Shown here piece after piece: positions 21,026 through 43,628 of a stretch of DNA of 64,000 nt. This stretch comes from an uncultured Nitrospira sp. Lineage in GTDB: Bacteria > Nitrospirota > Nitrospiria > Nitrospirales > Nitrospiraceae. The translations under genes and the position numbers were made by a program. The DNA lies in assembly GCA_902500995.1 (NCBI GenBank), contig CABVSR010000005.1, positions 1-64,000 of the forward strand, in the 5' to 3' direction. The notes beneath the pieces are model-generated. The model worked only from the letters and a program-made list of their open reading frames with translations, was not told the origin of the DNA and searched no databases. Numbering within the stretch: position 1 is the stretch's first letter; each line of letters opens with the position of its first letter.

Positions 21026-21706
21026 ATGAACACACGTGTCAGAGCATTCGTTCAGGCGCGAATGTCCTCTCGGCGGTACCCGGGCAAGATGCTTGCTCCA
21101 TTTCGCGGTGAAGCGATGATCCGTCATGTGCTGCGTGCCGTCGAGCAGACGCTTTCCCCTGAGGACATTGTTGTGGTGACGAGTGCGGAGGCTTCGGACG
21201 ATCCGCTCGTCCGTTACATCGAATCGATAGGCAGGCAAGTCCACCGAGGTTCCTTGGACAATGTCCTGGCCCGGTTCATATCCGGCTCGCGAGAGTATCC
21301 ATGCGATTGGATCCTGCGTGTGAACGGTGACAGTCCGTTATTGCTTCCAGAGGTGCTGCGTCTTGTCATCCCTTACGTTGAAAGCGACGCTCCTGACCTG
21401 GTGAGCACTGTTTTCCCACGGTCGTTTCCAAAGGGCCAAAATGTTGAACTCATCAGGGTCAGCACTCTTCATGGGATTCGCATGGAGGAGACCACGCTGA
21501 ATGATCAGGAGCACGTCACGCCATTTTTCTACAGGCAGCCTGAGCGATTTCAGATTGTAAATGTCGAGTCTGGAGACCGAAGGCTCGCCGAAATCGGGTT
21601 AGCCGTCGATACGATCGAGGATTTTCATCGTCTCGAACAGCTCTCGCTCGAAGATCTTCGCCGGTTCCGTCCACCTGTCTTGGCAGCCAGGGTTGCGTCG
21701 AGGTGA
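21026..21706 (+). CDS. SpsF-like cytidylyltransferase
   Basis: A 226-residue nucleotidyltransferase of the SpsF/NeuA superfamily (COG1861). The signature FVQARMSSRRYPGKML is at the N-terminus, followed by VVTSAEASDDPL and RVNGDSPLL, the metal-binding D. Relatives activate acidic sugars as CMP derivatives; SpsF itself acts in spore coat sugar synthesis. With a NeuB-type synthase three genes later, CMP-activation of a nonulosonic acid is the likely role. ATG 21026 is preferred over upstream in-frame starts inside fcl. The stop overlaps a GTG of the next frame, but that start is not favoured there. Confidence 0.75.
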   Translation: MNTRVRAFVQARMSSRRYPGKMLAPFRGEAMIRHVLRAVEQTLSPEDIVVVTSAEASDDPLVRYIESIGRQVHRGSLDNVLARFISGSREYPCDWILRVNGDSPLLLPEVLRLVIPYVESDAPDLVSTVFPRSFPKGQNVELIRVSTLHGIRMEETTLNDQEHVTPFFYRQPERFQIVNVESGDRRLAEIGLAVDTIEDFHRLEQLSLEDLRRFRPPVLAARVASR

Positions 21707-21744
21707 CGCTCCATCAGAACTTCAACCAGAAGGACATGCTACAC

Positions 21745-22920
21745 ATGACTGACACTCAGCCTATCCCATTTGCAAGACCTTGGATCACAGACGAGGATCG
21801 ACAAGCCGTTCTGGATGTGCTCAACGGGTATATCTTGACTCATGGTCCTCAGTGCAAGTCGTTTGAACAGGAGTTTGCTGAGTTTATGGGTGGGGGGCAC
21901 TGCGTATCGGTCAGCTCGTGCATGGCGGCATTGCACCTCTCGTACCTACATTTTGGGATTGGCCCTGGCGATGAGGTGATCGTGCCGGCGCAAACTCATG
22001 TGGCGACGGTTCATGCCGTGGAGTGGGTCGGGGCGACGCCGGTATTTGTTGACTGTGATGCCCGCACAGGAAATCTGACTGCGTCGGCGATCGAAACGGC
22101 GTTGACTCCCAAGACAAAAGCGATTTCTGTCGTACACTTTGCGGGCATTCCATGTGATATGCCTCCCATTGTCGATCTCGCACAACGGTACAATCTCAGG
22201 ATCATTGAGGACTGTGCGATTGCCTTGGGAGCTCGCCATCAGGAGCGTCATGTCGGCCTGTTCGGGGATGCCGGCTGTTTTTCCTTCTATCCGGTGAAGC
22301 ATATGACCACAGGGGAAGGTGGCATGTTCGTCAGTCGCCACCCAGACGTTTCTCAGGCGGTCGCGAAGCTGCGCGCCTTTGGCGTAGACCGGACTCACAG
22401 CGAGCGGACCGTGCCGGGCATGTATGATGTCCCGAGTCTCGGACTGAACTACCGGATGAGCGAAATTCAAGCGGCTCTCGGTCGCTCCCAGCTTCGGCGC
22501 ATGAGTGTCGTGCTGGCTCAACGTGCCTTGCAGTTCGATCGCTATCGGACGCTGATAGGCCATCTCCCGAATCTTCGGCTCGTCGACACGGGTGATGCTG
22601 AGTCCCGATCAAGCCACTATTGCGCGAGTGTCGTATTCGAGGGAGAATATGCGAATATGCGAAACCAGATGGTGGAACGACTGAACGCAGCCGGAATCGG
22701 AACGAGCATCTATTATCCGCAACCGGTTCCGCGGATGAACTATTATCGAAACAAATATGGGTTTGTGGCTGGTAGGTATCCACGAGCGGAACACATCAGC
22801 GATCATTCGGTTGCGCTCCCGCTGGGAATGCATGTGGCGGAAGGCGATGTCGACAGAATCGTGGCCACACTGGAGCGGAGCTTGGCGGAGAGTACCCGCG
22901 GGAAAGGACTCACACGGTGA
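21745..22920 (+). CDS. DegT/DnrJ/EryC1/StrS sugar aminotransferase (1)
   Basis: A 391-residue PLP enzyme. PFARPWITDEDRQAVLDVL opens the fold, SSCMAALHLSYL binds the cofactor phosphate, IIEDCAIALGA holds the Asp that contacts the pyridine, and FSFYPVKHMTTGEGG contains the Schiff-base lysine. Such enzymes transaminate keto sugars on nucleotide carriers (PseC, LegC, ArnB). ATG 21745 has AGAAGGA at good spacing; ATG 21736 is too close to it, and GTG 21703 overlaps the previous gene. The stop overlaps the next GTG by 4 bp. Confidence 0.85.
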   Translation: MTDTQPIPFARPWITDEDRQAVLDVLNGYILTHGPQCKSFEQEFAEFMGGGHCVSVSSCMAALHLSYLHFGIGPGDEVIVPAQTHVATVHAVEWVGATPVFVDCDARTGNLTASAIETALTPKTKAISVVHFAGIPCDMPPIVDLAQRYNLRIIEDCAIALGARHQERHVGLFGDAGCFSFYPVKHMTTGEGGMFVSRHPDVSQAVAKLRAFGVDRTHSERTVPGMYDVPSLGLNYRMSEIQAALGRSQLRRMSVVLAQRALQFDRYRTLIGHLPNLRLVDTGDAESRSSHYCASVVFEGEYANMRNQMVERLNAAGIGTSIYYPQPVPRMNYYRNKYGFVAGRYPRAEHISDHSVALPLGMHVAEGDVDRIVATLERSLAESTRGKGLTR

Positions 22921-23981
22921 TCGAACTCCAAGGACGGAAGATCGCGCTCATCGGAGGCGCTGGTTTTATTGGCCACAATCTTGCCTTGAGGCTGGCGGAA
23001 ATGGGTGCCGATGTTCATGCCGTCGACAGTCTGCAAGTCAACAATCTGGGTGCGTTCTCGAATTCGCATGAGGACACAAACAAAGCCCTGTACCTTCATT
23101 TCATACACGACCGCCTGCGGTTGCTCCAGGAGGCGCAGATTCCCCTGCATGTCGTCGATGCGCGGGACTACCATGTCCTGTCTCGATGCCTGAACGACAT
23201 ACAGCCTGATACGATTGTGCAGTTGGCTGCCATCGCCCATGCGAACCGTGCCAACAAGGATCCCTACAGCACGTTCGATCACAGTTTAAGAACCCTTGAA
23301 AATGCACTGGATTGCGCGCGGGGATTGAAGGCCCGATTCATCTATTTCTCATCCTCGATGGTCTACGGAAATTTTGACGGTGAGGCTGTGACGGAGACGC
23401 GCCATTGTGAACCGCTGGGTATCTATGGCGCGTTGAAGTATGGCGGAGAGAAACTCGTCATCGCCTATAGCCAAGTCTTTGGTCTTTCCTACACGATTGT
23501 CAGACCCTCGGCATTGTATGGTCAACGCTGCGTCAGTCGGCGAGTTGGGCAGGCGTTTATCGAAGGCGTCCTTCGCGGGGCGCCTCTCAGCGTGAACGGC
23601 GATGGGAGCGACGCGCTGGATTTTACATATATTAAAGACCTGGTGCAGGGCCTGGTGCTGTGTATCGGTAAAGACGAAGCCCGGAACCAAGTGTTTAATT
23701 TGACGTATGGAGGGGCGCGTTCACTAGCACAAATGATCGACATCGTGCGGCAACAATTCCCCAACGTGGAGGTGACCTTCCAACCGCGTGATGTCTTGAT
23801 GCCTGAACGCGGGACTCTTTCGATTGAGAAGGCCCAACGCTTGCTCGGGTACTGCCCTGAGTATCCGCTTGAGAAAGGCTTTGTCGAGTATATTCAATGG
23901 TACAAAGAGCTGGCCATCCAGCATGAGAGATTCTTCCACTCTCTTCGGGAGCCATCAGTGCGTGGGGGCACCCAGCGGTGA
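22917..23981 (+). CDS. NAD-dependent sugar epimerase/dehydratase (1)
   Basis: A 354-residue extended SDR protein. IALIGGAGFIGHNLAL binds NAD(P); YFSSSMVYGNFDG and IYGALKYGGEKL provide Ser, Tyr and Lys. Likely acts on a nucleotide sugar as a 4-epimerase or 4,6-dehydratase. It lies between the aminotransferase and the NeuB-type synthase with GTGA overlaps on both sides, so it probably supplies or alters the amino sugar precursor. The precise reaction cannot be read from the sequence. Confidence 0.8.
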   Translation: MIELQGRKIALIGGAGFIGHNLALRLAEMGADVHAVDSLQVNNLGAFSNSHEDTNKALYLHFIHDRLRLLQEAQIPLHVVDARDYHVLSRCLNDIQPDTIVQLAAIAHANRANKDPYSTFDHSLRTLENALDCARGLKARFIYFSSSMVYGNFDGEAVTETRHCEPLGIYGALKYGGEKLVIAYSQVFGLSYTIVRPSALYGQRCVSRRVGQAFIEGVLRGAPLSVNGDGSDALDFTYIKDLVQGLVLCIGKDEARNQVFNLTYGGARSLAQMIDIVRQQFPNVEVTFQPRDVLMPERGTLSIEKAQRLLGYCPEYPLEKGFVEYIQWYKELAIQHERFFHSLREPSVRGGTQR

Positions 23982-24988
23982 AACTCTTCGGTAAGAATCT
24001 CGATGAAACGGTCGCGGTTGTCGCAGAAATCGGCGTCAATCACGAAGGCGATGTTGCCGTTGCCGAGCGCCTGATCACGCTTGCCGCACAAGCCGGCGCC
24101 GATGCCGTGAAGCTTCAAACCTACACGCCTGAACGATATGCCTCCGCATCAGATCCACATCGACTGGCTAGGGTGACGCAATTCAATCTGTCGGAAGAGG
24201 CGCATCTTCGACTGGCCACCCATGCTGCGGCTCTGGGCATTCCGCTGTTTTCAACCGCGCTGACGGAAGATGTGGTGGACTTCCTGAGTCGATGGTGTCC
24301 GGCTATCAAGATCGCCAGCGGAGACGTGACCTTTGAACCGGTCATACGAGCAGCGGTTCGCACGGGAAAGCCCGTCATTCTGTCCACCGGAAACTCCACC
24401 ATCGATGAGATCGACCAGGCATTGGCATGGTGCAGTATGGAGTTGGCAGGGATTGCGCTGAAGGATCGAGTGGTCGTGATGCATTGTGTCTCAGCCTATC
24501 CGGTTCCTATTGAGCAAGCGAATGTGTCGAGTGTGCAGTTTCTCCGGCAGCGATATGGACTGACGACCGGGTATTCCAATCACGTGATCGGCGCGGAAGC
24601 AGTACTGGCGGCGGTTGCAGTGGGGGCGCAACTTATTGAAGTGCATTTCACCGACCGGCGAGAGGGGCGGGAGTTTCGCGATCATGCGCTCTCATTTGAG
24701 CCGCGCGAACTGAAGGACATGATGCGAAGTGTCGAAAGAGTGAAGGCCAGTTTGGGACGTTTTGGAAAGGAGATACAGCCCTGCGAGCTGCCGTTACGGG
24801 AGGTCATACGAAAAGGGGTCGTTGCGGCCAGAGCGCTGTCCGCAGAGACGGTTCTTTCGGAAGGCGATTTGATGTGGGCGCGTCCCGCGACAGGAATCAA
24901 AGCTGCTGAATGGCCGGCCCTTATCGGCAAACGCCTTGCGCGGCCGCTCCGCCGTGGAGAGCAGATCACGTGGAATGAGGTCCGTTGA
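23978..24988 (+). CDS. N-acetylneuraminate synthase family protein (nonulosonate synthase)
   Basis: A 336-residue NeuB-family synthase. VVAEIGVNHEGDVAVAERL and ADAVKLQTYTPE are diagnostic, with IKIASGDVT, ILSTGNSTIDEI and GYSNHVIGAEA in the barrel, and a C-terminal SAF (antifreeze-like) domain from about residue 280 (RKGVVAARAL). The enzymes condense PEP with a hexosamine to give sialic, legionaminic or pseudaminic acid type products. No hydrolysing C2-epimerase (NeuC/LegG) or PseG-like hydrolase is seen near it, so the exact nonulosonate is open. GTG start inside the previous stop. Confidence 0.87.
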   Translation: MKLFGKNLDETVAVVAEIGVNHEGDVAVAERLITLAAQAGADAVKLQTYTPERYASASDPHRLARVTQFNLSEEAHLRLATHAAALGIPLFSTALTEDVVDFLSRWCPAIKIASGDVTFEPVIRAAVRTGKPVILSTGNSTIDEIDQALAWCSMELAGIALKDRVVVMHCVSAYPVPIEQANVSSVQFLRQRYGLTTGYSNHVIGAEAVLAAVAVGAQLIEVHFTDRREGREFRDHALSFEPRELKDMMRSVERVKASLGRFGKEIQPCELPLREVIRKGVVAARALSAETVLSEGDLMWARPATGIKAAEWPALIGKRLARPLRRGEQITWNEVR

Positions 24989-24990
24989 CG

Positions 24991-25704
24991 ATGCGAGTGC
25001 TGATTCTGACAACGGACACCTTGCACCATGCGTATTTCGTGCGGGAACTTGTTTCACAGGTACCCAAGGTGTACGTCATTCTTGAAACTACCGGCGTCCG
25101 GCCGCCGTTTGAGGTGGTCCACCCATTTGAGGCGATACGTGATCAGTACGAACGTGAGATGTGGTTTGACGGCAAGGACCGGTCGGTGTCGGATTTCGCG
25201 GAGGCCATGTCATGCACGAACGTAAACGACTCGGCGGCAGTAGAAACCGCCAAGCAGTTTTCTCCCGATATCACGGTTGCCTTCGGGATCCGCAAGGCTG
25301 AACCGGCACTGATCAAGGCCGCCGGGCCTCGAGTCGTCAATCTGCACGGGGGAGATCCTGAATTTTATCGCGGCCTGGATAGCCATCTCTGGGCGATCTA
25401 TCACAATGATTTTAGGAATGTGGTCACAACGTTACACGTGCTGAATGAAGCGCTTGACGACGGAGCACTCATCGGCATACGCCCGGTCGCGCTCCATCGA
25501 GACATGCGTCTGCATCAATTGCGTCACCGCAATACCGAAGCGGCACTGAATCTTACGCGCGTGGCTTTGGATGAGCTGCAGGCCACAGGCCATATCGCCA
25601 CTCGTTCACAGCGGCAAGTCGGACGATATTATTCTTTTATGCCGACCGTGCTGAAGGATGTGTGCGTGAAACGATTTGAAAAATATTGCGCTAGATTAGA
25701 ATGA
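24991..25704 (+). CDS. Sugar N-formyltransferase-like protein
   Basis: A 237-residue formyltransferase-fold protein (Met-tRNA formyltransferase/ArnA/WlaRD superfamily). The segment VVNLHGGDPEFYRGLDSHLW contains the conserved Asn and His, and LNEALDDGALIG holds the Asp, matching the N-H-D catalytic set. It lacks the C-terminal tRNA-binding domain of Fmt, so a nucleotide amino sugar is a likelier acceptor, with formyl-tetrahydrofolate as donor. ATG 24991 is favoured; TTG 24985 overlaps the synthase stop. The next gene begins at ATGA within the stop of this one. Confidence 0.78.
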   Translation: MRVLILTTDTLHHAYFVRELVSQVPKVYVILETTGVRPPFEVVHPFEAIRDQYEREMWFDGKDRSVSDFAEAMSCTNVNDSAAVETAKQFSPDITVAFGIRKAEPALIKAAGPRVVNLHGGDPEFYRGLDSHLWAIYHNDFRNVVTTLHVLNEALDDGALIGIRPVALHRDMRLHQLRHRNTEAALNLTRVALDELQATGHIATRSQRQVGRYYSFMPTVLKDVCVKRFEKYCARLE

Positions 25705-26600
25705 ACTATTCGTCGAGGATTTCCGGCAACCATATTGCCATTTTTCTATTTCACGGTGTGACCCTGCCTGTCGATTGTGCAGTCCGCAACTATACCAGGA
25801 AGCATATTGAGCGTGATTACTTTGCGACGGTGCTTCGGGCGCTGAAGCAGGCGGGCACTCCCGTGAGTATGAACGACATACTCAACCACCGCGAGCTGGG
25901 GACCCCTCTTCCTCCGCGGCCCTTCGCCGTGACGTTCGATGATGGATTTCGGAACAACCTCACGGTGGCGGCTCCCGTGCTCGTGGATGAACAGGTGCCC
26001 GCAACGTTTTACATCACGACGGATTTTGTCGAACGGAACAGGATGTCCTGGATTGATCGCATTGAGTTTGCCGTGGAGCAGCGTCTTCAGGCTGAGCTTC
26101 AGCTTCCGTGGGGGCCGCGACGGTTTCATGGGGATGAAGAACGCCGGGCATTTCTCAGCGAGATCCGGCAGGTCGTGAAAAACGACTTGATGATTGATGC
26201 AGAGAAGCTCGCGACGGATATACAGACTCAACTGGGGGTAGCCATCACCCATTCAAGTTCGCACCCTCTTGACCAGAAACTGAGCTGGAGCGAGGTCCGA
26301 GCACTTGCGGCTGAGCCGTTGTTTACTGTGGGGGGCCACGGGCACTCTCACGCGATCCTCGATTCTCTCGGCCATCAGGATTTGGAATGTGAGCTCGATA
26401 CGGGCATGCGATTGTTGAAAGAGAAGGCTGCGGTTCAGGGTCCGCATTATTCGTACCCAGAAGGCATGCCCAATTGTTATTCGGCACGAGTCATCGAGGC
26501 GTTGAAGCAGAGAGGTGTTCGCTGCTGTCCCAGTGCGATTGATGGCGTGAATGACTCCACCGCGGACTTGTTTCATCTGAAGCGGGTGATGGTTGTCTGA
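25701..26600 (+). CDS. NodB-homology polysaccharide deacetylase family protein
   Basis: A 299-residue carbohydrate esterase 4 type protein. VTFDDGFRNN is the catalytic/metal motif, GGHGHSHAILDSL the second metal motif (HSH), and SYPEGMP the third. There is no signal peptide or membrane segment, so it should act in the cytoplasm on a soluble or lipid-linked sugar rather than on peptidoglycan. ArnD, a deformylase of the same superfamily, works with the formyltransferase ArnA; the overlap here with a formyltransferase gene suggests a similar pairing. Confidence 0.8.
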   Translation: MNYSSRISGNHIAIFLFHGVTLPVDCAVRNYTRKHIERDYFATVLRALKQAGTPVSMNDILNHRELGTPLPPRPFAVTFDDGFRNNLTVAAPVLVDEQVPATFYITTDFVERNRMSWIDRIEFAVEQRLQAELQLPWGPRRFHGDEERRAFLSEIRQVVKNDLMIDAEKLATDIQTQLGVAITHSSSHPLDQKLSWSEVRALAAEPLFTVGGHGHSHAILDSLGHQDLECELDTGMRLLKEKAAVQGPHYSYPEGMPNCYSARVIEALKQRGVRCCPSAIDGVNDSTADLFHLKRVMVV

Positions 26601-26648
26601 TTCCCTGCGCGAGTTTGAGACCTGCGTTTCATCGATCGCGATGTCTTC

Positions 26649-27653
26649 ATGCCTAAGGTGAGAGTCGGAGTCATCGGTCTTGGAGTCGGGGCGAAGCATG
26701 CGGAGGCCATCGCCCGGATTCCAGAGTGCGAGCTGGCCGCCGTGTGCGACACCAACCCGGCGACACTTGCCGTGGTAGCCGGTAAGTTTCCGGGTGTCGT
26801 GGCCTGTGAGCGCGATACGGATATTCTCGATGATCCCTCCATCGACCTGGTGTGCATTGCGAGCTACGATGACTGCCATTTCTCTCAGACCCTCCTGGCT
26901 CTGGAACGAGGTAAACACGTGTTTGTGGAGAAGCCTTTTGTGCTCCATGAGGCAGAAGCGCGCCGCGTCAGAGAACAATTGCGCCGTCGCCCCGACCTTC
27001 GCTTGTCGTCGAATTTGATTTTGCGCCGTTCGCCGCGCTTCCTGGATCTGCGGCAGCGGATCCTCGCGGGTCAATTCGGCACGCTCTACCACCTGGACGC
27101 AGAATATAACTACGGGCGGCTTGAAAAAATTACCGAGGGATGGCGGGGGAAGTTGCCTTTTTACTCCGCCGTCCACGGCGGTGGCGTGCATGTTGCTGAC
27201 CTCCTCATGTGGCTTGCGGGCGACCGGATTCTTGAGGTGTCGGCGGTAGGAAATGCACTCGCGAGCCAAGGCTCCGGATTTGGGAATTTTGACAATGTGG
27301 TTGCGATCTTGCGCTTCGCCAGCGGCGCGGTGGGAAAGCTCGGCGTCAACTTCGGTTGTCGATTGCCGCACTTCCACGCAGTGGCCTTGTACGGGACGAA
27401 GGCCACGTTTCTGAACGGTAGGGACTGTGCATGGTTATATACGTCTGCGGATCCCCATGTTCCGCCGCTGATCTTAAATAGCGCGTACCCCGGGGTGCAT
27501 AAGGGTGCGTTGATCGAGGGTTTTGTGGCGGCGATTCAAGGACGCGGGGAGGCGGAGGTGAGCGAGGATGACGTGTTTGCCTCTCTTTCTGTGTGCTTTG
27601 CGATCGAACAGAGCGCCCATTCGGGCCTCCCGGTTCAAGTGAATTATGTCTGA
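26649..27653 (+). CDS. Gfo/Idh/MocA family oxidoreductase
   Basis: A 334-residue NAD(P)-dependent dehydrogenase. VGVIGLGVGAKHAEAIARI is the Rossmann motif, and GKHVFVEKPFVLHEAEA contains the conserved EKP lysine; HGGGVHVADLLMWL provides the downstream histidine/aspartate region. Family members oxidise or reduce sugar hydroxyls/ketones, for example WlbA/WbpB (3-oxidation of UDP-uronates). In this cluster it may make the keto sugar used by one of the aminotransferases. The end overlaps the next gene by 8 bp. Confidence 0.83.
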   Translation: MPKVRVGVIGLGVGAKHAEAIARIPECELAAVCDTNPATLAVVAGKFPGVVACERDTDILDDPSIDLVCIASYDDCHFSQTLLALERGKHVFVEKPFVLHEAEARRVREQLRRRPDLRLSSNLILRRSPRFLDLRQRILAGQFGTLYHLDAEYNYGRLEKITEGWRGKLPFYSAVHGGGVHVADLLMWLAGDRILEVSAVGNALASQGSGFGNFDNVVAILRFASGAVGKLGVNFGCRLPHFHAVALYGTKATFLNGRDCAWLYTSADPHVPPLILNSAYPGVHKGALIEGFVAAIQGRGEAEVSEDDVFASLSVCFAIEQSAHSGLPVQVNYV

Positions 27654-28410
27654 CCATCAGTCGGAGCAGTCTCCCATACGGGCTATGCGCGGTGTGTCGA
27701 TTGTTCCGGATGCCTGGCTTGCTGCGATCATGAAGCGCGAGGTGCACCGGGTAACCGGGGTGTGGGAAGAATCCGAGGAAGGCACCGCTCGGCAAGAACT
27801 TCACCAGTTGACCCTGCAGTCAGGTTTTGCTTTTGCCAAGGTTGCCACACAAGACGTGCGCACGAGTCATCAATTGGAAGCGTGCGGGTTTCGTATCGTG
27901 GATACGGCGCTGACTCTGGAGACGCGAGCCTTATCGGCAGCCGGCAGAGTCAGCTCCAGGGTGCGGCTGGCGACGCCGGAAGATGCGCCCACGGTCATGC
28001 ATATCGCGAGGCAGAGTTTTCGTTATTCTCGGTTTCATTTGGATCCTGCGATCCCTCCGGGCTTGGCAAACGAAATCAAGGCCCAGTGGGCCGGCAATTT
28101 CTTCAGCCGGCAGAGGGGCGACCACATGGTCGTGGCAGAACACGATGGTCGCGTCGTGGGATTTCTTCAATTGATCGCGACAGCTGATTCTGTTCTGGTC
28201 ATCGACCTCATTGCGGTCCAGCCAGATGCCCGTGGTAGGGGATTGGCAGCCGCGATGATTGAGTTTGCGAACAGGGCCTGTGGTCATCCAAGAACGGTTC
28301 GCGCCGGCACCCAGAGCGCGAACCTTCCTTCCCTTGCCCTCTATCATAAGCTTGGGTTTCAGATTGTTTCGAGCAGTCATATTTTTCATCTGCACGGGCC
28401 GTCGCGGTAG
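27646..28410 (+). CDS. GNAT-family N-acyltransferase
   Basis: A 254-residue protein whose C-terminal half is a GNAT domain: VRLATPEDAPTVMHIARQSF, then VIDLIAVQPDARGRGLAAAM, which carries the acetyl-CoA pyrophosphate loop (RGRGLA), and LGFQIVSSSH near the end. The N-terminal ~105 residues look like a second, degenerate GNAT half, as in WecD/FdtC-type and two-domain GNAT proteins. Likely N-acetylates an amino sugar made by a neighbouring aminotransferase. Confidence 0.78.
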   Translation: MSDHQSEQSPIRAMRGVSIVPDAWLAAIMKREVHRVTGVWEESEEGTARQELHQLTLQSGFAFAKVATQDVRTSHQLEACGFRIVDTALTLETRALSAAGRVSSRVRLATPEDAPTVMHIARQSFRYSRFHLDPAIPPGLANEIKAQWAGNFFSRQRGDHMVVAEHDGRVVGFLQLIATADSVLVIDLIAVQPDARGRGLAAAMIEFANRACGHPRTVRAGTQSANLPSLALYHKLGFQIVSSSHIFHLHGPSR

Positions 28411-28471
28411 GGTGCCATCAATTCAGTAGGCACAGACTACGGCGTCTTGCCTTTAAGAGGGGATCGTTACC

Positions 28472-30301
28472 ATGTGCGGGATAGCCGGCTTCATTGGGAC
28501 CCGGCGTGTGTCTGAGGAGACGGCTCGAGACTGTCTCGCTCTCATGCGGCGCCGAGGACCTGACGCTTTCGGGTTGCGCCGTTTTACGACCTCTTCCGGG
28601 CGGCATGTGTTGTTGCTTCACAGTCGGCTTTCGATCATTGATCTGGATTCCAGATCCGACCAACCCTTCAACATTCAACAATCCTGGATGGTGCTCAACG
28701 GGGAATTGTACAACTATCTGGAGATCAAACGGCGTCTCGCTGAAGCCGGCATTTCGTTTCACACCCGGTCCGATACGGAGGTATTTCTAGCCGCTATTTG
28801 TCGTGACGGCTGGCGTGTATTGGATGAAGCGGAAGGCATGTGGGCACTGGCGGTCTACGACGAATTGCAGGAACAGTTAACGCTCTCACGTGATCGATTC
28901 GGGGAAAAGCCGCTGTATGTCGTGCGGTCGCCGGAAGGATTGTATTTCGGATCCGAAGTCAAGTTCCTGTTTGCCCTCATGGGAAAAGTGTTGCCGGTCA
29001 ACCGGCAGCATGTGCGCCGTTACCTGGTGAATGGATACAAGGCGCTGTATAAGTCGGAGGAGAGATTTTTCGAGGGGCTCGAGGAAGTGCCCCCTGCGGC
29101 GGTACTGCGAATAGAGGCCGATGGTCAGGAAACGCAGAGCTTGTATTGGGTGCCCTCCTTTCGCCCGGACGACAGTTTGACTTATGAGGAGGCGGTGGCG
29201 GGGGTACGCGCGAGGATTATTCGCTCGATGGACCTGCGTTTGCGGGGCGATGTGCCGGCTGCATTTCTGATGAGCGGAGGGGTCGACTCCAACGTGCTCA
29301 TCGGCATCGCGAAGCGAGTGTTCGGCTACGACGTGCACGGATTCACGATTCTGACGGATGATGAACGATATGACGAGGGCCAGATCCTCGATCGGTCAGT
29401 CGCGGAATTGGGAGTCCGGCATACAGGGCTGAAAGCCGACCCTACCGACTACGTAAACAATATGAAGCTCCTCGTGAAATACCATGATGCGCCGGTTTCA
29501 ACCATCAGCCATTATGTTCAGTGGCTTCTCATGCGTGCGGTGCATGCGAACGGATACAAGATCTGTCTGAGTGGTGTGGGCGCGGATGAGTTGGTGAGCG
29601 GTTATTATGATCATTACTTGATGCATCTGGCGGAGATTCGGAACCTGCCTGAATATGCCTCCACGCGAGAGGCGTGGCAACAGTACGTCCGACCGCTGGT
29701 GAGAAATCCTTACTTAAGGGACGCGGATCTGTTTGTCCATGCGCCTGAATTCCGAGAGCATATTTTCTTGAATCGCGAGGAATTTTCCGAGTATCTCACT
29801 CAACCGTTTTCCGAGCCGTTCCAAGAGCATCACTATGCTGATTCCTTGCTTCGAAACCGCATGATGAATGAAATGTTTGTGGAGGCGACGAGGGTCATCC
29901 TGCATGAAACCGACCTCAACGCCATGTATTTTTCCATTGAGAATCGATCGCCGTATTTGGATCGCCATCTATTCGAGTTTTGCTATTCGATTCCGAATCG
30001 GTATTTGAGTCGAAACGGATACAACAAGGTCGTGTTGCGTGATGCGGCACGAGGGCTTGCGCCGGATTGTGTGTTGGATGAACGGCGAAAAGTCGGCTTC
30101 AACGCCCCCATCCATGCGTTTCTGGATGTACACAATCCGGCGGTGATGGAGTGGCTGATGGAAGATAGCCCGGTGTTTGATCTGCTGAAGCGAAAGAAGA
30201 TGTTGGAATTGCTCTGTACCCCTCAGTTAGCCAATAGCGCGAGCAAATTCTTGTTCTACTTTGTCAATGCAAAGGTGTTCCTCGAAGAATTTGCCGGTTA
30301 A
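28472..30301 (+). CDS. asnB: Asparagine synthase (glutamine-hydrolysing) family amidotransferase
   Basis: A 609-residue AsnB-type protein. It starts with MCGIAGFIG, giving the N-terminal Cys2 glutaminase nucleophile, followed by RRRGPDA and GELYNYLEI. The synthetase half has the PP-loop FLMSGGVDSN near residue 270. ATG 28472 is preceded by GAGGGGATC. Such enzymes amidate aspartate, but copies in O-antigen clusters (WbpS-like) are thought to form uronamides or supply ammonia. The next gene codes for another PP-loop amidotransferase, so a sugar substrate or ammonia-donor role is plausible. Confidence 0.87.
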   Translation: MCGIAGFIGTRRVSEETARDCLALMRRRGPDAFGLRRFTTSSGRHVLLLHSRLSIIDLDSRSDQPFNIQQSWMVLNGELYNYLEIKRRLAEAGISFHTRSDTEVFLAAICRDGWRVLDEAEGMWALAVYDELQEQLTLSRDRFGEKPLYVVRSPEGLYFGSEVKFLFALMGKVLPVNRQHVRRYLVNGYKALYKSEERFFEGLEEVPPAAVLRIEADGQETQSLYWVPSFRPDDSLTYEEAVAGVRARIIRSMDLRLRGDVPAAFLMSGGVDSNVLIGIAKRVFGYDVHGFTILTDDERYDEGQILDRSVAELGVRHTGLKADPTDYVNNMKLLVKYHDAPVSTISHYVQWLLMRAVHANGYKICLSGVGADELVSGYYDHYLMHLAEIRNLPEYASTREAWQQYVRPLVRNPYLRDADLFVHAPEFREHIFLNREEFSEYLTQPFSEPFQEHHYADSLLRNRMMNEMFVEATRVILHETDLNAMYFSIENRSPYLDRHLFEFCYSIPNRYLSRNGYNKVVLRDAARGLAPDCVLDERRKVGFNAPIHAFLDVHNPAVMEWLMEDSPVFDLLKRKKMLELLCTPQLANSASKFLFYFVNAKVFLEEFAG

Positions 30302-30350
30302 AGGTGGGTGATGTCTGAAATCGGTGACCGGCGCGAAGGGTGTTGGTGAT

Positions 30351-31472
30351 ATGCGTTATTGTGTAGCCTGCGTGCTGCCTGATACTCGCCCCAATCTTCT
30401 TCTGGGGCCCGATGGGGTGTGTAATGCCTGTCGCGTTCATCGCAGCAAGACAGACATTGATTGGACAAGCCGGTCTCAGGCGTTCGAGCGGCTGGTTGCA
30501 GAGGTCAAATCTCGGAGTCGCGGATATGATTGTGTGATCCCTGTCAGCGGGGGGAAGGATAGTACTTGGCAGGTGATTCAGTGTTTGAATGCCGGGCTGA
30601 CGCCCCTTGCCGTGACGTGGAAAACGCCGTCTCGCACCGCTGTCGGGCAACGGAATCTCGATAATCTTGTCTCTCTTGGCGTCGACCACATCGATTATCA
30701 GATCAATCCGAAGGTTGAAAGCCGGTTCATGTTGCGCGCGCTCGAACGATACGGAAGCACCGCGATTCCGATGCATTTGGCACTCTTCAATATTCCGCTT
30801 CGTATTGCCGTGAAGTTTGGGATTCAGTTGGTGGTGTGGGGGGAAAACTCAGCCTTCGAGTATGGGAGTGCGAACCAAGCCCATACGGGGTTCAAATTGG
30901 ATGAAACGTGGTATCGAACCTATGGGGTCACGCACGGAACCACAGCCTCCGACTGGGTAGGAGAAGACTTCACGGAACAGGAGTTGGCGGGATACGTGGG
31001 ACCTCTCTCGGATGAGTTGGAGCGAAGCGGCACACACGCAATTTTTCTCGGATGGTATTTTCCCTGGGACCCCCAAACAAGTCTTGCCGTGGCTTGCGAG
31101 CATGGGTTTCAGTGTGAGCCCACAGGGGCTCGAACCGGGTACTATGACTTTGCCGATATCGACGACGACTTCATCTCGATCCACCACTGGTTAAAGTGGT
31201 ATAAATTCGGGTTCACTCGCCTGTTCGACAATCTTTCGCTGGAGATTCGAAACGGGCGTCTTACACGTGAGCAAGCCGTAGCGATGATCCGAGCGCGCGG
31301 AGATCAGACGCCCTATGCAGATATTGAAAAGTTTTGTCGTTTCGTGGGGATAGAAGAGCCGCACTTCTGGAAGATATGCGAGGCATTTCGCAACCGTACG
31401 ATCTGGAAGCAACGAGAATCCGGAGCCTGGTACATGCCGGATTTTCTGATTGAGGATTGGCCCTGGACATGA
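30351..31472 (+). CDS. N-acetyl sugar amidotransferase (WbpG/PseA/LegN-like)
   Basis: A 373-residue PP-loop ATPase. MRYCVACVLPDTRPN and GVCNACRVH form a CxxC zinc-type pair, then VIPVSGGKDSTWQVIQ is the ATP pyrophosphatase loop and WGENSAFEYG a conserved family segment. This matches the N-acetyl sugar amidotransferases that turn an acetamido group into acetamidino (WbpG, PseA). Family members usually draw ammonia from a HisH-like glutaminase; none is seen, but AsnB lies immediately upstream. ATG 30351 begins at the conserved domain; GTG 30324 would add nine residues. Confidence 0.85.
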   Translation: MRYCVACVLPDTRPNLLLGPDGVCNACRVHRSKTDIDWTSRSQAFERLVAEVKSRSRGYDCVIPVSGGKDSTWQVIQCLNAGLTPLAVTWKTPSRTAVGQRNLDNLVSLGVDHIDYQINPKVESRFMLRALERYGSTAIPMHLALFNIPLRIAVKFGIQLVVWGENSAFEYGSANQAHTGFKLDETWYRTYGVTHGTTASDWVGEDFTEQELAGYVGPLSDELERSGTHAIFLGWYFPWDPQTSLAVACEHGFQCEPTGARTGYYDFADIDDDFISIHHWLKWYKFGFTRLFDNLSLEIRNGRLTREQAVAMIRARGDQTPYADIEKFCRFVGIEEPHFWKICEAFRNRTIWKQRESGAWYMPDFLIEDWPWT

Positions 31473-31855
31473 AATTTTCTCCCAAGAATCCGCCTCGCCG
31501 TTTTGAGGTTGGGCATGATGTTCGATTCGAACTTCAGGATTGTGGTACGGCATACATGCAGCCGGACGAACAGATCACATTCGCCACCGAATCAGGATCG
31601 CAATATGATGTCGTCCGAAAAGATTGGGGCTTTTATGCGACACCGTCCCTGAACGCACGACTTCCGCAGTGTGGCTTACGCGGAGCCCTCGTCGTGAATC
31701 GCGCTTCCAGGCGGTATTACGTGTTGCTGGTCGAGAAGGGGAAAGAGGAGCAATTTGCCGATTATTGCTCGCGAGAACGACTGCGAGTGGTGGCATGGTT
31801 GGATCATGCCGACACGCTGGAGACCATGTTCGGCAACTCTGTGGATCGTCAATGA
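31469..31855 (+). CDS. Hypothetical protein, 128 aa
   Basis: A small protein of 128 residues starting at ATG 31469 in an ATGA overlap with the amidotransferase, and ending in an overlap with the next ATG. The first ~50 residues are polar (VGHDVRFELQDCGTAYMQPD); the middle has alternating beta-like stretches (GALVVNRASRRYYVLLVEKG), and no signal peptide or membrane segment is seen. I do not recognise a family. The tight coupling on both sides implies a role linked to the amidotransferase or the methyltransferase, perhaps a small partner or chaperone; this is inference. Confidence 0.6.
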   Translation: MKFSPKNPPRRFEVGHDVRFELQDCGTAYMQPDEQITFATESGSQYDVVRKDWGFYATPSLNARLPQCGLRGALVVNRASRRYYVLLVEKGKEEQFADYCSRERLRVVAWLDHADTLETMFGNSVDRQ

Positions 31856-32691
31856 TGCGTCCCACCCTACAGTGCCCCTGCGATTGGAATTACTGCGAGA
31901 CCGTGTTTCGCTATGATGCCCCCCCACCAGGAGAAATGAGCCTCGATAGAGGGGCGCAGGCGTATCAACGTGCCTTCCTGCGTTGTGCACTCTGCCGGCA
32001 CTGGTACTCACAGAATCCGCTGAATCTCTCGCGCCTCTATGACAGCGCGTATGTTAGTGCGACCTATGGAGAAGGATTGCGGGAGACGTTTCAGCGAATT
32101 CTCGCTCTTCCTCCAGAAGGCTCTGATAATGCCGCGCGAGTCGCTCGCGTGCTCCAATTTGCTCGCTCGCGCTTGGCATCCGGCAGGCCCCCCACGCTTC
32201 TCGACATCGGTTCGGGGCTCGGGGTGTTTCCTTACCGCATGAAGGAGGCCGGATGGGACTGTACCGTGATCGATCCTGACGCCCGTGCCGTTGAGCATGC
32301 TGCGACTATGGTCGGCGTGAGAGCGATCAGGGGCGACTTTCTCACGATATCTCCTGAACAGGTTGGAACCTTTGATCTGGTCACATTGAACAAGGTCCTG
32401 GAGCATGTGGTCGATCCGGTTCGGATGCTTGAGCGAGCAACAGGGTATCTCAAGACCGATGGATGGGTCTATATTGAGCTTCCTGATGGGGAAGTGGCGT
32501 CACATCACGGTTCGCACCGCGAAGAATTTTTCATCGAACATCACCATGCCTTCAGCGTCGGGTCGCTCAACATGTTGGCCGACCGGGCCGGATTTCTCGC
32601 CTTGTCCGTCGAGCGGCTGCATGAGCCCAGTGGGAAATTTACGTTGTGTGCATTCCTTGCGCCGAAGTCTCTCTTGCCGGCGGCGCCGTGA
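31852..32691 (+). CDS. Class I SAM methyltransferase with N-terminal cysteine motif
   Basis: A 279-residue protein. The first ~50 residues hold paired cysteines (CPCDWNYC, then CALCRHWYSQ), a putative zinc module. From about residue 110 a Rossmann-type methyltransferase follows: TLLDIGSGLGVFPYRMKEAG is the SAM motif I, FDLVTLNKVLEHVVDPVRML motif IV. It fits the Methyltransf_23 group with an N-terminal zinc ribbon, frequent in sugar clusters. The double ATG at 31852/31855 overlaps the previous stop. Target is unknown, probably a sugar hydroxyl or amine. Confidence 0.8.
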   Translation: MMRPTLQCPCDWNYCETVFRYDAPPPGEMSLDRGAQAYQRAFLRCALCRHWYSQNPLNLSRLYDSAYVSATYGEGLRETFQRILALPPEGSDNAARVARVLQFARSRLASGRPPTLLDIGSGLGVFPYRMKEAGWDCTVIDPDARAVEHAATMVGVRAIRGDFLTISPEQVGTFDLVTLNKVLEHVVDPVRMLERATGYLKTDGWVYIELPDGEVASHHGSHREEFFIEHHHAFSVGSLNMLADRAGFLALSVERLHEPSGKFTLCAFLAPKSLLPAAP

Positions 32692-34439
32692 AGATTCTGT
32701 TTTTCGCTCCCCACGCGGCGATCTGGGTGCACGCGTTTCCCGAGGCGCTTATTGCTGAAACCTTGGCTCAGTCAGGACATACTATCGTGTATGTGAGTTG
32801 CGGCGAGGCGCTACAGAAGGTCTGCATTCCCATGAACGCTTTCGGCCTCGACCACCTGAGCCCGCTCAAGGCCCGACAAGAGATGTGTCGCCGTTGCGGA
32901 GAGCACACACAGTTGATACGAACGGAATTCGGCCTTGAAGGTTGTGATCTTGCGGGATTGTTGGAGCCTGCCGATTGGGAGACGGTTGAGCAGCTTCTAG
33001 CTGGACTTTCGCCAGATACGATCAATGCTTGTACGATCCAGGGTGTCCCCGTAGGACGGCTTGCCCTGTACGAGCCGATTCTCAATCGTAAGAAAACCGA
33101 GACCGAGTTCGCTGGCGATGAGTGGGACGAATATCTGGCCTGGTTGCGGGGGGCGGTCGTCGCAACGATCGCAGGAAGTCGGATTATCGAACGAGAGCGT
33201 CCAGATTGTGTTGTCGTTTACAATTCGTTTTATTCGGTCAACCATGTCATGTGTTGGTTGGCAAAGGATCGCGGCATTCCACATTATTTCCTTCATGCCG
33301 GCGGTAACTTGTCGTGCCGTCTGCAAAAGCTGATGGTGGGTCGTGACGAAGCCTATCAATATTTGCGTCGGCTGGTGGATCGGTGGCCGCAGTTTTCTCA
33401 TAGGCCTTGCGCGCCAGATATTTTGCGGGAGATTACCAACCACTTTCTGGTGTTATTTGGGGGCCAAAGCGTCTTCAGCTATTCTGCAAGAGCATCGCAG
33501 GAGCCATTTAATGTTCGCGAGCGATATGGAATTGGAATAGACCAGAAAATCGTGGTTGCGACTATGAGTAGCAACGACGAGCGTGTCGCAGCCAAGGTAA
33601 TCGGCGTGCTTCCTGATACTCCCCGGCTGTTGTTCCCTCAGCAGGTCGACTGGATCAAGTGGTTGATCGAGTTTGCTGCCGAGCGTCCGGACATATTCTT
33701 GCTGATTCGCGTCCATCCGCGGGATTTCCCGAACAAGCGCGAAGGTGTCAAGTCAGAGCAGGCGAGGAATCTCGAAGCACTTTTTCGGCAACTGCCCAAT
33801 AACGTGTGCGTCAATTGGCCGAGTGAGCATGTTTCCCTGTATGATCTTGCCAACGAGGCCGCAGTATTTTTGAATGCGTGGTCGAGCGCCGGAAAGGAGA
33901 TGAGCTTGTTGGGGCTGCCGGTCGTGATCTATGCTCCGGAGTTGATCTATTATCCTTCCGAGTTGAATTATGTCGGCACGACGAAAGAGGAGTTGATCAA
34001 GCGAATTGATCAAGCGCTTCAAGATGGATGGAGCTTCGACAAGACTCGCGCCACCTATCGATGGCTTGCGCTCGAATACCATTACGGTCTCATCGATATT
34101 GCCGACAGCTACCCGCTGAAGGAAGATGGTTCTTCCTCCGTTGTTCAGCGACTCGTGAAGCGTGTGCGGCGGTGGGGCGCGCCGTTTTACCAGCAAAAAC
34201 ACGACTGCCAGAACAGAAGTGCTCGCCTCAGGTCATCGGAGGTAGTGGATTCGGTCTTTCGTCTTTTAGCGGAAACCCCTGTAGACCCGAAGGTGGGGAG
34301 TGCTATCCCAGACATCTCTGCCAAGGAAGAGGAGACGGCACTTCGGCTTGAATTAGTTCGTGTTGGGAAGGCGCTGTTCGGCACCGGCACTCCTCATCAC
34401 TCCCATACGTTAGCCGCACGGCTCCTAGGGCTGGGTTGA
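32688..34439 (+). CDS. Unknown protein, possible GT-B glycosyltransferase
   Basis: A 583-residue protein starting at GTG 32688 (VKILFFAPHAAIWVHAFPEA), an opening like that of GT-B glycosyltransferases. A CRRC pair lies near residue 67. The centre contains FLHAGGNLSCRLQKLMVGRD, and the C-terminal half has VATMSSNDERVAAK, LLIRVHPRDFPNKREG and SSAGKEMSLLGLPVVIYAPE, the last resembling the donor-site region of capsule-type GT-B enzymes. I do not recognise a named family. The last ~90 residues look helical and lack motifs. Best guess is a glycosyltransferase of the capsule/CDP-glycerol-transferase type. Confidence 0.55.
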   Translation: MKILFFAPHAAIWVHAFPEALIAETLAQSGHTIVYVSCGEALQKVCIPMNAFGLDHLSPLKARQEMCRRCGEHTQLIRTEFGLEGCDLAGLLEPADWETVEQLLAGLSPDTINACTIQGVPVGRLALYEPILNRKKTETEFAGDEWDEYLAWLRGAVVATIAGSRIIERERPDCVVVYNSFYSVNHVMCWLAKDRGIPHYFLHAGGNLSCRLQKLMVGRDEAYQYLRRLVDRWPQFSHRPCAPDILREITNHFLVLFGGQSVFSYSARASQEPFNVRERYGIGIDQKIVVATMSSNDERVAAKVIGVLPDTPRLLFPQQVDWIKWLIEFAAERPDIFLLIRVHPRDFPNKREGVKSEQARNLEALFRQLPNNVCVNWPSEHVSLYDLANEAAVFLNAWSSAGKEMSLLGLPVVIYAPELIYYPSELNYVGTTKEELIKRIDQALQDGWSFDKTRATYRWLALEYHYGLIDIADSYPLKEDGSSSVVQRLVKRVRRWGAPFYQQKHDCQNRSARLRSSEVVDSVFRLLAETPVDPKVGSAIPDISAKEEETALRLELVRVGKALFGTGTPHHSHTLAARLLGLG

Positions 34440-34531
34440 ATGGCCGATCGACTTGTCTGGGGCACCAGTGGTGAGCCGTCGCTCCGCAGCATGCAGACGA
34501 AAAGTGATCATCCTTGTCCACAGAGGGCTCT

Positions 34532-35287
34532 ATGAAAATTGAAAATTCTCCCTTGTCGAGCGAGAATCAAAAGTCTGCGCAAGAAAGACGATCCGACTAT
34601 TTCGATTCCGGAGTCGGAACGACCCTGCAAAAACTGCATTCGTTTATGCGGTTTGTGAGCCGGCAAGATGTCGCCAAGCATCGTGCCTATGTGGCGTTGT
34701 TTGAGATGACCCGTGGCATTGTTGGTTCCATAGCCGAGTGCGGCGTCTACTTCGGGCAGGGACTTATGACCTATGCTAATCTTGCCGCAGCATTCGAACC
34801 GTACAACTACCAATGTCGAATTATTGGGTTCGACACGTTTGAAGGTGATCGATCACATTCTGAACCGGATGTGAACGGGAACATGGTCGATCGGAGTGTC
34901 TGGAACTACGAAGCCAAAGCACTTGATGACCTTCAACGTGCAATCACGATCTATGATCTCGACCGTCCCCTTAACCATCTGCAGAAAGTCCAACTGGTCA
35001 AGGGAGATCTCTGTGAGACTGCGGCTGCGTTCATGACGGCCCATCCGGAGACATTGTTTCGCATCATTCATTTGTCGGTGAATTTGTACTTGCCCACCCG
35101 ATCAGTATTGCAGCATTTTTATCCGAAGTTGTCACGAGGGGGCATATTGGCGATTCATGGTCTGAACTATAGTGCGCCGGGCGCGCAACGAGCCTTGAGT
35201 GAAGTGGTTGAGCAACAATTTGGGGAAAAGGTAGATCTGCGCACGTTCGAGTATTATCCCAACCTTGTGTACAGCGTGAGACAATAG
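34532..35287 (+). CDS. TylF/MycF-like O-methyltransferase
   Basis: A 251-residue protein of the TylF/MycF type. After a polar N-terminus, the segment GIVGSIAECGVYFGQGLMTY matches the SAM-binding opening of this family, and CRIIGFDTFEGD supplies the acidic residue of motif II. The segment LSRGGILAIHGL parallels the metal-binding part, where TylF-type enzymes usually have DDY. The lack of a DD pair here is worth noting and could mean an altered metal site. ATG 34532 has AGAGGGCTCT in front. Confidence 0.62.
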   Translation: MKIENSPLSSENQKSAQERRSDYFDSGVGTTLQKLHSFMRFVSRQDVAKHRAYVALFEMTRGIVGSIAECGVYFGQGLMTYANLAAAFEPYNYQCRIIGFDTFEGDRSHSEPDVNGNMVDRSVWNYEAKALDDLQRAITIYDLDRPLNHLQKVQLVKGDLCETAAAFMTAHPETLFRIIHLSVNLYLPTRSVLQHFYPKLSRGGILAIHGLNYSAPGAQRALSEVVEQQFGEKVDLRTFEYYPNLVYSVRQ

Positions 35288-35343
35288 AGGCCTGCGGCAA
35301 AAAGAAATCCGCGATCTGAAGTTAAAAGAGGCCACACCAGCAC

Positions 35344-36660
35344 ATGGTCACTACGCCTAAGACAGAGATACCCGGATTCCCCCGCGTCGACTATTCCGCA
35401 CACCCTGCCTACGCACTAAAAGGGTACGGTAGCGCGCTCGATGATGATCGAATAGATCAAGAGGTCGGGGGGATCGATACGGCATTTCAGGGTCTACTGG
35501 TGGAGGCCGACGGCAACACAGCAGGCGAGGACGTCCGATTCGACGAGGTAGTCGGGTATCGAATTGACGCGCTGTTAGCCTATGCGCTTGGCCCAGGGGG
35601 CCTGACCGGCCGGATCGCGGATTATACGACACGAGCAATGAGAGTTGCGAAACAGTCGTTGTTAGATGAGTGGAAATTCAAGATCCGAAGTCATGCCGTG
35701 CGGTATCAGCCGGTCCTTACTGTGGCAGAACAGGAAAAGCTGAAGGTTTTCAAAACGGATGGTGTGGTATGTCTGGATTCCAGGGAAGATGCGGTGGCCG
35801 GCCTGTGGGATAAAATCTGGTGGGAGCGTAAGTTGTTGAAGCAGCAAGCCGCAAGATTGCCATGGGGGCGTTGCGCGATGGCGCTGGATCCGCACTCGCC
35901 GGCCGCACAGCTGCTGCAGTCGGCCTTGCAGCGCTCACGAGTGCTCGAGCTTGCTGGCGCGTATTCGGGGTGTCGCATGGAGCTTCTGTACGCGGCCTTG
36001 GATCACGCCCATGCACGTCAAGCGTGGTACAAGGGGTGTTACGCCGATGTCGGCATGGACACCACCACCACGGCCTATATGCATCTGGATGCGGATTTCG
36101 ATATTGTGAAGGCCATGCTGTATCTCACCGATGTGGAACCTGAAAACGGAGCATTTCGATTCGTCCGGGGGAGTCATCAGTGGCAGCGGTCGCCGTTTCT
36201 GATTGCCTTGTATAAGGGATTTGATTGCGAGCAGGACGCCTATTTTACACGCGCCCAGAATGGACTCGACTATGAAGGTGGGTATTATCGGCCTCGTTTT
36301 CACGTGCCATCCCACCGCCAGGAGTTGATGTCTCTCCCCAGCAGTTTTCGGGGCTCGACCCATTTCGGTGACGATGTGATCGATGGTTCTCCGATGTCCA
36401 CGCGGCTGCTCGCCGGCGAGCAGGTGTTCACGGGACCTGCAGGAACTTTCGTGCTGTTCCATGGTGCCGCCGGAATCCATCGTGGCTCACAGGTATCTCG
36501 GGGGGAGCGCTGGGCGATACAGATTGCGCTTCGTGCATCGAGAGAGACATCGCCACGTCCGCGTCGGGATGTGAGCGAAACGCTCGCGACGCTTCGCTAT
36601 CATCTCAGACGACTCAAACACACCGTACTATCAATTCCTGGACAATCCGATTCGCTGTGA
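35344..36660 (+). CDS. Phytanoyl-CoA dioxygenase (PhyH) family protein
   Basis: A 438-residue protein. The C-terminal half is a double-stranded beta-helix oxygenase: YMHLDADFDIVKAMLYLTDV gives the HxD iron ligands, ENGAFRFVRGSHQW is the PhyH hallmark, and GIHRGSQVSRGERWA gives the distal His and a 2-oxoglutarate-binding Arg. The N-terminal ~190 residues do not match anything I know. PhyH enzymes hydroxylate at unactivated carbons, and copies in glycan clusters are presumed to hydroxylate sugars or lipid carriers. It ends in GTGA overlap with the FkbM gene. Confidence 0.78.
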   Translation: MVTTPKTEIPGFPRVDYSAHPAYALKGYGSALDDDRIDQEVGGIDTAFQGLLVEADGNTAGEDVRFDEVVGYRIDALLAYALGPGGLTGRIADYTTRAMRVAKQSLLDEWKFKIRSHAVRYQPVLTVAEQEKLKVFKTDGVVCLDSREDAVAGLWDKIWWERKLLKQQAARLPWGRCAMALDPHSPAAQLLQSALQRSRVLELAGAYSGCRMELLYAALDHAHARQAWYKGCYADVGMDTTTTAYMHLDADFDIVKAMLYLTDVEPENGAFRFVRGSHQWQRSPFLIALYKGFDCEQDAYFTRAQNGLDYEGGYYRPRFHVPSHRQELMSLPSSFRGSTHFGDDVIDGSPMSTRLLAGEQVFTGPAGTFVLFHGAAGIHRGSQVSRGERWAIQIALRASRETSPRPRRDVSETLATLRYHLRRLKHTVLSIPGQSDSL

Positions 36661-39436: not shown

Positions 39437-39463
39437 CGAAATCGATCCGTTGATTGGGATGCC

Positions 39464-40177
39464 ATGGATGGTTTCTTCTCAAGTCGTCTGACCTCCTGCC
39501 TGTATTCCATGCTGAGGGCAATCCGTCCTGAAGTCCGTTGGTCCTATTCCCAAGAGGGTGAAGATCTTGTCCTGAATCGTCTCTTCGAGAATCAGCCTCA
39601 TGGGTTTTATGTGGATGTCGGCGCGCATCACCCGTTTCGATTTTCAAATACGTATTTGCTCTCTCGGCGCGGCTGGTGGGGGATCAATGTTGACCCCAAT
39701 CCCCAGGCGATGCAGTTATTCCAACGACTGCGCCGGCGGGATGTCAATCTGGCTGTAGGGATTGCTGAGCAGGCCGGAAGCCGTTGCTATTTCCAGTTTA
39801 ATGAGCCTGCCCTGAACACGTTCGATGAACAGTTGGCACGTCAGCGGGAAGTTCGAGATGGTTATCAATTGATCGCGTCGACGCCTGTTCCCGTCTTACC
39901 GCTCCGCCAGGTATTTGAACAGCACTTGCCTCCGGGGCAGGTTATAGATGTGTTGTCGGTGGATGCGGAGGGATATGATCTGAGTGTCATCCGGTCGAAT
40001 GACTGGGACCGGTTTCGTCCGTATTGCGTGCTGGTGGAGACGTTGCAGTCGTCGTTGGCTGCGCTTGAGAAGAACGAGACGCATCACTACCTGTCGGCCC
40101 GTGGCTATGAGTTATTTGCCAAAACGGTGAATACGTTTATTTATCTGGACCACAAAAGCCCGAGGGACCCGTGCTAG
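39464..40177 (+). CDS. FkbM family methyltransferase (2)
   Basis: A 237-residue protein: YSQEGEDLVLNRLF and GFYVDVGAHHPFRFSNTYLL form the N-terminal SAM motif (with the DVGAHHP hallmark of FkbM methyltransferases), NVDPNPQAMQLF gives the acidic residue, and DVLSVDAEGYDLSVI is the FkbM core motif. Together with the gene at 36657 it brackets the ABC transporter. Presumed to O-methylate a sugar of the repeat unit. The final 7 bases overlap the GTG start of the next gene. Confidence 0.86.
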   Translation: MDGFFSSRLTSCLYSMLRAIRPEVRWSYSQEGEDLVLNRLFENQPHGFYVDVGAHHPFRFSNTYLLSRRGWWGINVDPNPQAMQLFQRLRRRDVNLAVGIAEQAGSRCYFQFNEPALNTFDEQLARQREVRDGYQLIASTPVPVLPLRQVFEQHLPPGQVIDVLSVDAEGYDLSVIRSNDWDRFRPYCVLVETLQSSLAALEKNETHHYLSARGYELFAKTVNTFIYLDHKSPRDPC

Positions 40178-43617: not shown

Positions 43618-43628
43618 GCAGAGGCGTC

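Follow-up and report, generated by a model that had tools for sequence, protein, structure and literature searches.

A conserved gene cassette of Nitrospira with a probable role in the synthesis of a nitrogen-modified, nonulosonate-type surface sugar

A 64,000 nucleotide stretch of DNA from an uncultured Nitrospira sp. (contig CABVSR010000005.1, hereafter the window) carries, at positions 21026-31855 of its + strand, a cassette of eleven co-directional open reading frames (ORFs). Most of the ORFs overlap: the first six each share 4 bases with the next, and later gaps do not exceed 61 bases. Their catalytic motifs are intact. Families were assigned by Pfam and NCBIfam profile searches against curated cut-offs. 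The gene order and families had been listed in an earlier note made from the sequence alone, and all of the ORFs were present with profile matches as described there. The cassette is real and conserved, comprises about eleven genes and is found in nitrite-oxidising Nitrospira. Most likely, it builds a sialic-acid-like surface sugar with unusual nitrogen groups.

The first gene (21026..21706, + strand, as are all those that follow) encodes an SpsF-type cytidylyltransferase (CTP_transf_3, PF02348, E = 3.3e-21), likely a CMP-nonulosonate synthetase. Its motif QARM-S-R-PGK is found in the cassette copies, with one variant form. This gene is succeeded by a DegT/PseC-ArnB-type pyridoxal phosphate (PLP) sugar aminotransferase (21703..22920; PF01041, 5e-112), in which the PLP motif FYPVKH is invariant across cassette copies, an extended, epimerase-like short-chain dehydrogenase/reductase (SDR; 22917..23981; PF01370 Epimerase, 1.6e-41) and a NeuB-family synthase with a SAF domain (23978..24988; PF03102, 4.5e-63). 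An optional pair comes next: a formyltransferase (24985..25704; PF00551 Formyl_trans_N, 2.8e-6, just over the cut-off) that keeps the N-x-H and D motifs, and its partner, a NodB/polysaccharide-deacetylase-type amidase (25701..26600; PF01522 Polysacc_deac_1, 1.1e-14) with TFDD and HxxxH motifs. The Gfo/Idh/MocA NAD-dependent oxidoreductase (26649..27653; PF01408, 2.7e-21) has conserved VEKP and GGG-V/I-H motifs. It precedes a GNAT N-acyltransferase (27646..28410; PF00583, 1.9e-15) that is WecD/RffC-like, scoring 72.5 bits against the NCBIfam WecD model, below the cut-off of 219. An AsnB-type glutamine-dependent amidotransferase (28472..30301; TIGR01536, 347 bits, cut-off 267) keeps Cys2 and SGGVDS. 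The N-acetyl sugar amidotransferase (NASAT/WbuX/WbpG family; 30324..31472; TIGR03573, 308.7 bits, cut-off 203.2), hereafter WbuX, belongs to the NASAT family and has both a tetracysteine zinc motif and the PP-loop SGGKDS; the chemistry of this family and its definition by tetracysteine and PP-loop motifs have been described (PMC10607449). The last gene (31457..31855, starting at 31457 or 31469) encodes a small conserved protein of no family, with no Pfam match even at an E-value of 1.

The earlier note had proposed a search for the same ordered gene set in other genomes, and it was indeed found. The block occurs in eight further Nitrospiraceae (G056, G054, G059, G062, G083, G158, G031 and, as a partial copy on a short contig, G060), with 53-94% identity of the cassette genes within the family. 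The SDR is the best conserved of them (78-94% identity among these eight). Divergent copies are present in G195 (same family), in G371, which represents a different family of the phylum, and on plasmid p5 of Azospirillum brasilense. The order spsF-gfo-aminoT-sdr-gnat-neuB-asnB-wbuX is shared by G195 and Azospirillum, and in Azospirillum the small protein and a methyltransferase come after it. Given this recurrence in other genomes, the gene arrangement is not due to chance. The distribution within the phylum is sparse: the SDR was found at the set limit in only 9/395 genomes. A scan of genome contigs for the synthase yielded no more than three close relatives, all from Nitrospira, and a single distant synthase. 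No relative of the SDR was found at the set limit in phage records.

There is also variation in content between copies. The formyltransferase and NodB genes occur together in six copies and are jointly missing from the others, the formyltransferase being absent from G158, G031, G195, G371, Azospirillum and the partial G060 copy. As the two genes are adjacent, a single insertion or loss could explain this pattern. AsnB seems to be truncated in G158, and no WbuX was found in its vicinity there. Plasmid p5 holds two cassette copies (L059, L074), one with a split gfo and aminotransferase and the other with broken asnB and wbuX, reflecting decay or sequencing error. Inspection by eye downstream of the G031 cassette (L046:15092-19899) suggested ketoacyl-ACP-synthase III-like, AAC(3)-like acetyltransferase, DUF4910-like peptidase and HisH-like glutaminase genes. 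The G371 copy contains a WbqC-like gene (PF08889; L070:8086-8823) together with an additional set of Gfo, SDR and DegT genes.

The earlier description of a nonulosonate-type gene set is supported. The synthase is a member of the NeuB/SpsE superfamily, having a TIM-barrel NeuB domain and a SAF domain. Its catalytic residues are kept in the cassette copies and can be aligned with those of SiaC from N. meningitidis and PseI from C. jejuni. Judged by these motifs it should be catalytically competent. It scored below the cut-offs of the curated models for both NeuB_NnaB (270 bits, cut-off 399.65) and PseI (TIGR03586; 204 bits, cut-off 340.25). In a maximum-likelihood tree, the cassette synthases formed one clade (support 99/97) with three synthases from genomes where the cassette was not found (L014-L016), and G195, G371 and Azospirillum formed their own branch within it. 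Neither PseI nor SiaC nor any synthase adjacent to NeuC or PseG fell within this clade in the sampled tree, whose 46 rows are mostly from Nitrospirota and include no characterised LegI or SpsE, so that the placement is a partial one. By score and by tree, the synthase therefore lies outside the PseI group of pseudaminic pathways and apart from the SiaC and NeuC-adjacent synthases of sialic and legionaminic ones.

We consider it probable that the cassette encodes a pathway to a CMP-activated nonulosonate-type sugar, the product being probably acetamidino-substituted and destined for the surrounding lipopolysaccharide (LPS)/O-antigen-type glycan. The reactions, their order and the product are inferred from gene content, motifs, conservation, the absence of PseG/NeuC in several genomes and the distinct synthase clade. 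The SDR and Gfo/Idh enzymes would prepare a keto-sugar, to which the PseC/ArnB-type aminotransferase would add an amine for acylation by GNAT. The NeuB-type synthase would condense the free amino-sugar with phosphoenolpyruvate (PEP) and SpsF would add CMP, whilst WbuX would turn an N-acetyl into an acetamidino group, with AsnB as its probable supplier of ammonia. In some genomes the optional formyltransferase/NodB pair may alter one N-acyl group, by analogy with ArnA/ArnD. AsnB adjoins WbuX in the copies having both, and no HisH/HisF-type partner was found adjoining WbuX in the window cassette; AsnB is a plausible ammonia source for WbuX, or alternatively it could amidate a carboxylate. The dense N-modification envisaged in the earlier note is likewise plausible.

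Several observations weigh against this pathway. Only AsnB is assigned by a curated equivalog, WbuX passing just a subfamily model. The synthases of G195, G371 and Azospirillum are just 37-39% identical to that of the Nitrospira window, and substrates may therefore differ between copies. Moreover, no gene was assigned as the transferase that would use the sugar, no hydrolase was recognised that would release the free aldose, and there was no 4,6-dehydratase in the cassette nor any PseB or LegB over the cut-off in the genome (best LegB 170.5 bits, cut-off 475). The absence of PseG and NeuC/LegG, pointed out in the earlier note, held for the whole genome relative to these models, by which a divergent hydrolase could be missed: PseG gave no match and the best NeuC/LegG scores were 45-47 bits (46.9) against a cut-off of 235.9. 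The best NeuC scores in G056 and G062 (both single contigs), G054, G083, G158 and G031 were 75-98 bits, with no PseG over the cut-off, while G059, G195 and G371 carry NeuC elsewhere in the genome. Neither PseB with PseG, as in pseudaminic pathways, nor LegB with LegC, as in legionaminic ones, was recovered.

These results bear on a rather unlikely alternative, an ordinary legionaminic-, neuraminic- or pseudaminic-type pathway in which distant or unlinked enzymes perform the missing steps (an RmlB/LegB-like or CapD-like SDR; a WecB-like 2-epimerase or an unrecognised hydrolase) and the cassette SDR and Gfo do no more than tailor the product. The cassette genomes contain many SDRs as well as WecB-like proteins, which score 45-98 bits against the NeuC model, the NeuC of G059, G195 and G371 is a true one, and Gfo and GNAT genes also occur in NeuC-containing Aeromonas islands (PMC7874193). 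However, no NeuC or PseG exceeded the cut-offs in seven genomes (G000, G054, G056, G062, G083, G158 and G031, two of them single-contig), and the synthase did not group with NeuC-adjacent synthases. According to the earlier note, a synthase grouping firmly with a known type, together with its missing partners elsewhere in the genome, would indicate an ordinary nonulosonate; this combination was not observed.

A closer inspection of the SDR revealed the motifs SSSMVYG and YGALK (YxxxK) in 13/13 copies, while the RmlB of the same window has STDEVYG. The dehydratase Asp-Glu pair (STDExYG motif) was absent from every copy; the SDR was accordingly rejected as an NDP-sugar 4,6-dehydratase, and an epimerase or oxidoreductase role is more likely. 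In NeuB-type condensation, the aldose C3 becomes the ring-forming C6. The formation of a 3-amino aldose by Gfo and DegT before condensation was rejected on this ground. Amination might instead follow condensation, as for 8-amino-Kdo: a simple ulosonic acid would be made first, Gfo/SDR would oxidise a hydroxyl, DegT would aminate, GNAT acylate, WbuX amidinate and SpsF activate, and therefore no NDP-diamino-sugar hydrolase would be needed. Such a route would account jointly for Gfo, DegT and the missing hydrolase, and the aminotransferase matches the structure of the 8-amino-Kdo transaminase (5k8b, 147 bits). Nevertheless, we find it quite unlikely, as PseC (312 bits, below the model cut-off of 423.5; LegC 219, cut-off 420) and perosamine/ArnB enzymes give the aminotransferase higher scores, and this route, too, would have to obtain a free N-acyl mannose-type precursor.

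GH109-type glycosidases belong to the Gfo/Idh superfamily and act by transient NAD-dependent oxidation and elimination. By the same chemistry, the cassette Gfo might replace the hydrolase and release the aldose from an NDP-sugar. It is found in all cassette copies, including those of genomes without PseG/NeuC, and its Lys and His motifs are kept. However, Gfo enzymes are also plain dehydrogenases in sugar pathways and a Gfo-type gene exists in known clusters that have NeuC (PMC7874193), making this the least likely proposal and a very doubtful one. Returning to the CMP-activated, acetamidino-substituted product, we raise as a tentative possibility that the cassette is a fourth kind of nonulosonate route, with its own synthase clade and a precursor made or released by SDR and Gfo/Idh instead of a PseG/NeuC-type hydrolase. 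Its product would be an amidinated (in some genomes formyl-modified) sugar acid that is not among the known ones.

The earlier note had taken the cytidylyltransferase as a sign of novelty, stating that the CMP-transferases of known routes are NeuA-like rather than SpsF-like. This is contradicted by the action of SpsF in the CMP-legionaminic acid pathway of B. subtilis (PMC7439481), by an SpsF-like domain proposed as a replacement for NeuA in a Pse-type cluster (PMC7371886) and by a fusion in genome G182, where one 602-aa ORF (L047:13255-15063, - strand) combines NeuB, SAF and SpsF-type CTP_transf_3 domains. With these precedents, SpsF-likeness is no argument for a new pathway. Within a few kb of the fusion ORF are a NeuC and another NeuB, the latter belonging to the cassette clade. 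NeuB matches inside 794-aa open frames (G199:C21, G200:C1) are possibly further fusions. The cassette SpsF was rejected as the Kdo cytidylyltransferase of the genome, there being a better and distinct CTP_transf_3 match at C17, presumably KdsB.

The usual 3′ neighbour of the cassette is a SAM methyltransferase (31852..32691; PF13489, 7.7e-21), common to the Nitrospiraceae copies and Azospirillum. Its real start is at about 31852, a longer frame being interrupted in relatives (L035-L037); the small-protein ORF overlaps this long frame. The small protein directly follows WbuX in other Nitrospiraceae and is also found in Azospirillum (55% identity). A 597-aa protein (32646..34439) is possibly a GT-B-like transferase (weak Glyco_trans_4_4 match only, E = 0.013). 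AlphaFold2 models of both proteins were poor (mean pLDDT 40 for the small protein, 43 for the 597-aa protein). The surroundings also include heptosyltransferase-family and GT4 glycosyltransferases, an O-antigen ligase, Rml, Gmd/Fcl, a Bac_transf sugar transferase and a phosphomannomutase-type protein. Because of the glycosyltransferases, ligase, Rml, Gmd/Fcl and sugar transferase, the cassette is placed in an LPS/O-antigen-type locus of Nitrospira. Membership of gmd/fcl in the cassette was rejected, since they adjoin it in the genus and G371 but were not found beside it in G083, G158 and G031. A single ORF at 26-1654 combines a heptosyltransferase (GT9) domain with a HAD hydrolase-like one. 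At 34514-44771, several methyltransferases in a row (TylF, two FkbM, TIGR04325 and others) are accompanied by PhyH, an ABC transporter and another SDR-DegT pair, in which the SDR has no YxxxK.

The "new acidic sugar" and "undescribed system" of the earlier note go beyond the evidence, as loci for nonulosonates or amidinated sugars already provide examples of Gfo/Idh, GNAT, PseC-type aminotransferase and NASAT genes alike. The novelty lies in how the genes are combined, in the conservation of this set and in the lack of a recognisable release step. No paper describing the cassette was found within the literature searched, and it is apparently a conserved, undescribed variant rather than a proven new pathway. 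Nonulosonates are normally predicted from genomes by PseG/NeuC/LegG together with PseI/NeuB/LegI. Such rules would overlook or misassign a conserved cassette that has no PseG/NeuC/LegG and a synthase from a clade of its own. The cassette offers a concrete enzyme set and predicts a surface sugar for a genus of key importance in nitrification.

Among known systems, the B. subtilis sps pathway to CMP-legionaminic acid (SpsM-C-D-G-E-F; PMC7439481) is alike in aminotransferase, acetyltransferase, NeuB-type synthase and SpsF-type cytidylyltransferase. However, it needs the SpsM dehydratase and the PseG-like SpsG, without recognised counterparts in the Nitrospira cassette, and does not have its SDR, Gfo, AsnB and WbuX. 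The GDP-linked legionaminic acid pathway of Campylobacter/Plesiomonas (PtmA-F, LegB/C/H/G/I/F) shares a synthase, aminotransferase, acyltransferase and the PtmF oxidoreductase, and acetamidino derivatives of Campylobacter nonulosonates are known. It differs in that the cassette has no LegB/LegG match over the cut-off and no recognised PtmE-type gene, and its LegF is given as a homologue of NeuA rather than as SpsF-like. The pseudaminic clusters of Moritella and Aeromonas (PMC7371886, PMC7874193) have SpsF-like activation, PseC, GNAT and sometimes Gfo, but their synthase is called PseI and PseB is present. Some Aeromonas islands resemble the cassette in having no separate pseG, gaps that may be due to fusions (PMC7874193). 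The Shewanella sfm cluster is a different gene set. In the ArnA/ArnD pair a formyltransferase is followed by a NodB-type deacylase, as in the cassette pair that is gained or lost together; sequence similarity is weak and the cassette role is by analogy only. Finally, the amidinated uronate pathway of P. aeruginosa O5 (WbpB/WbpE/WbpD/WbpG), while involving no PEP condensation or CMP activation, resembles the cassette in its Gfo, DegT, acyltransferase and NASAT types.

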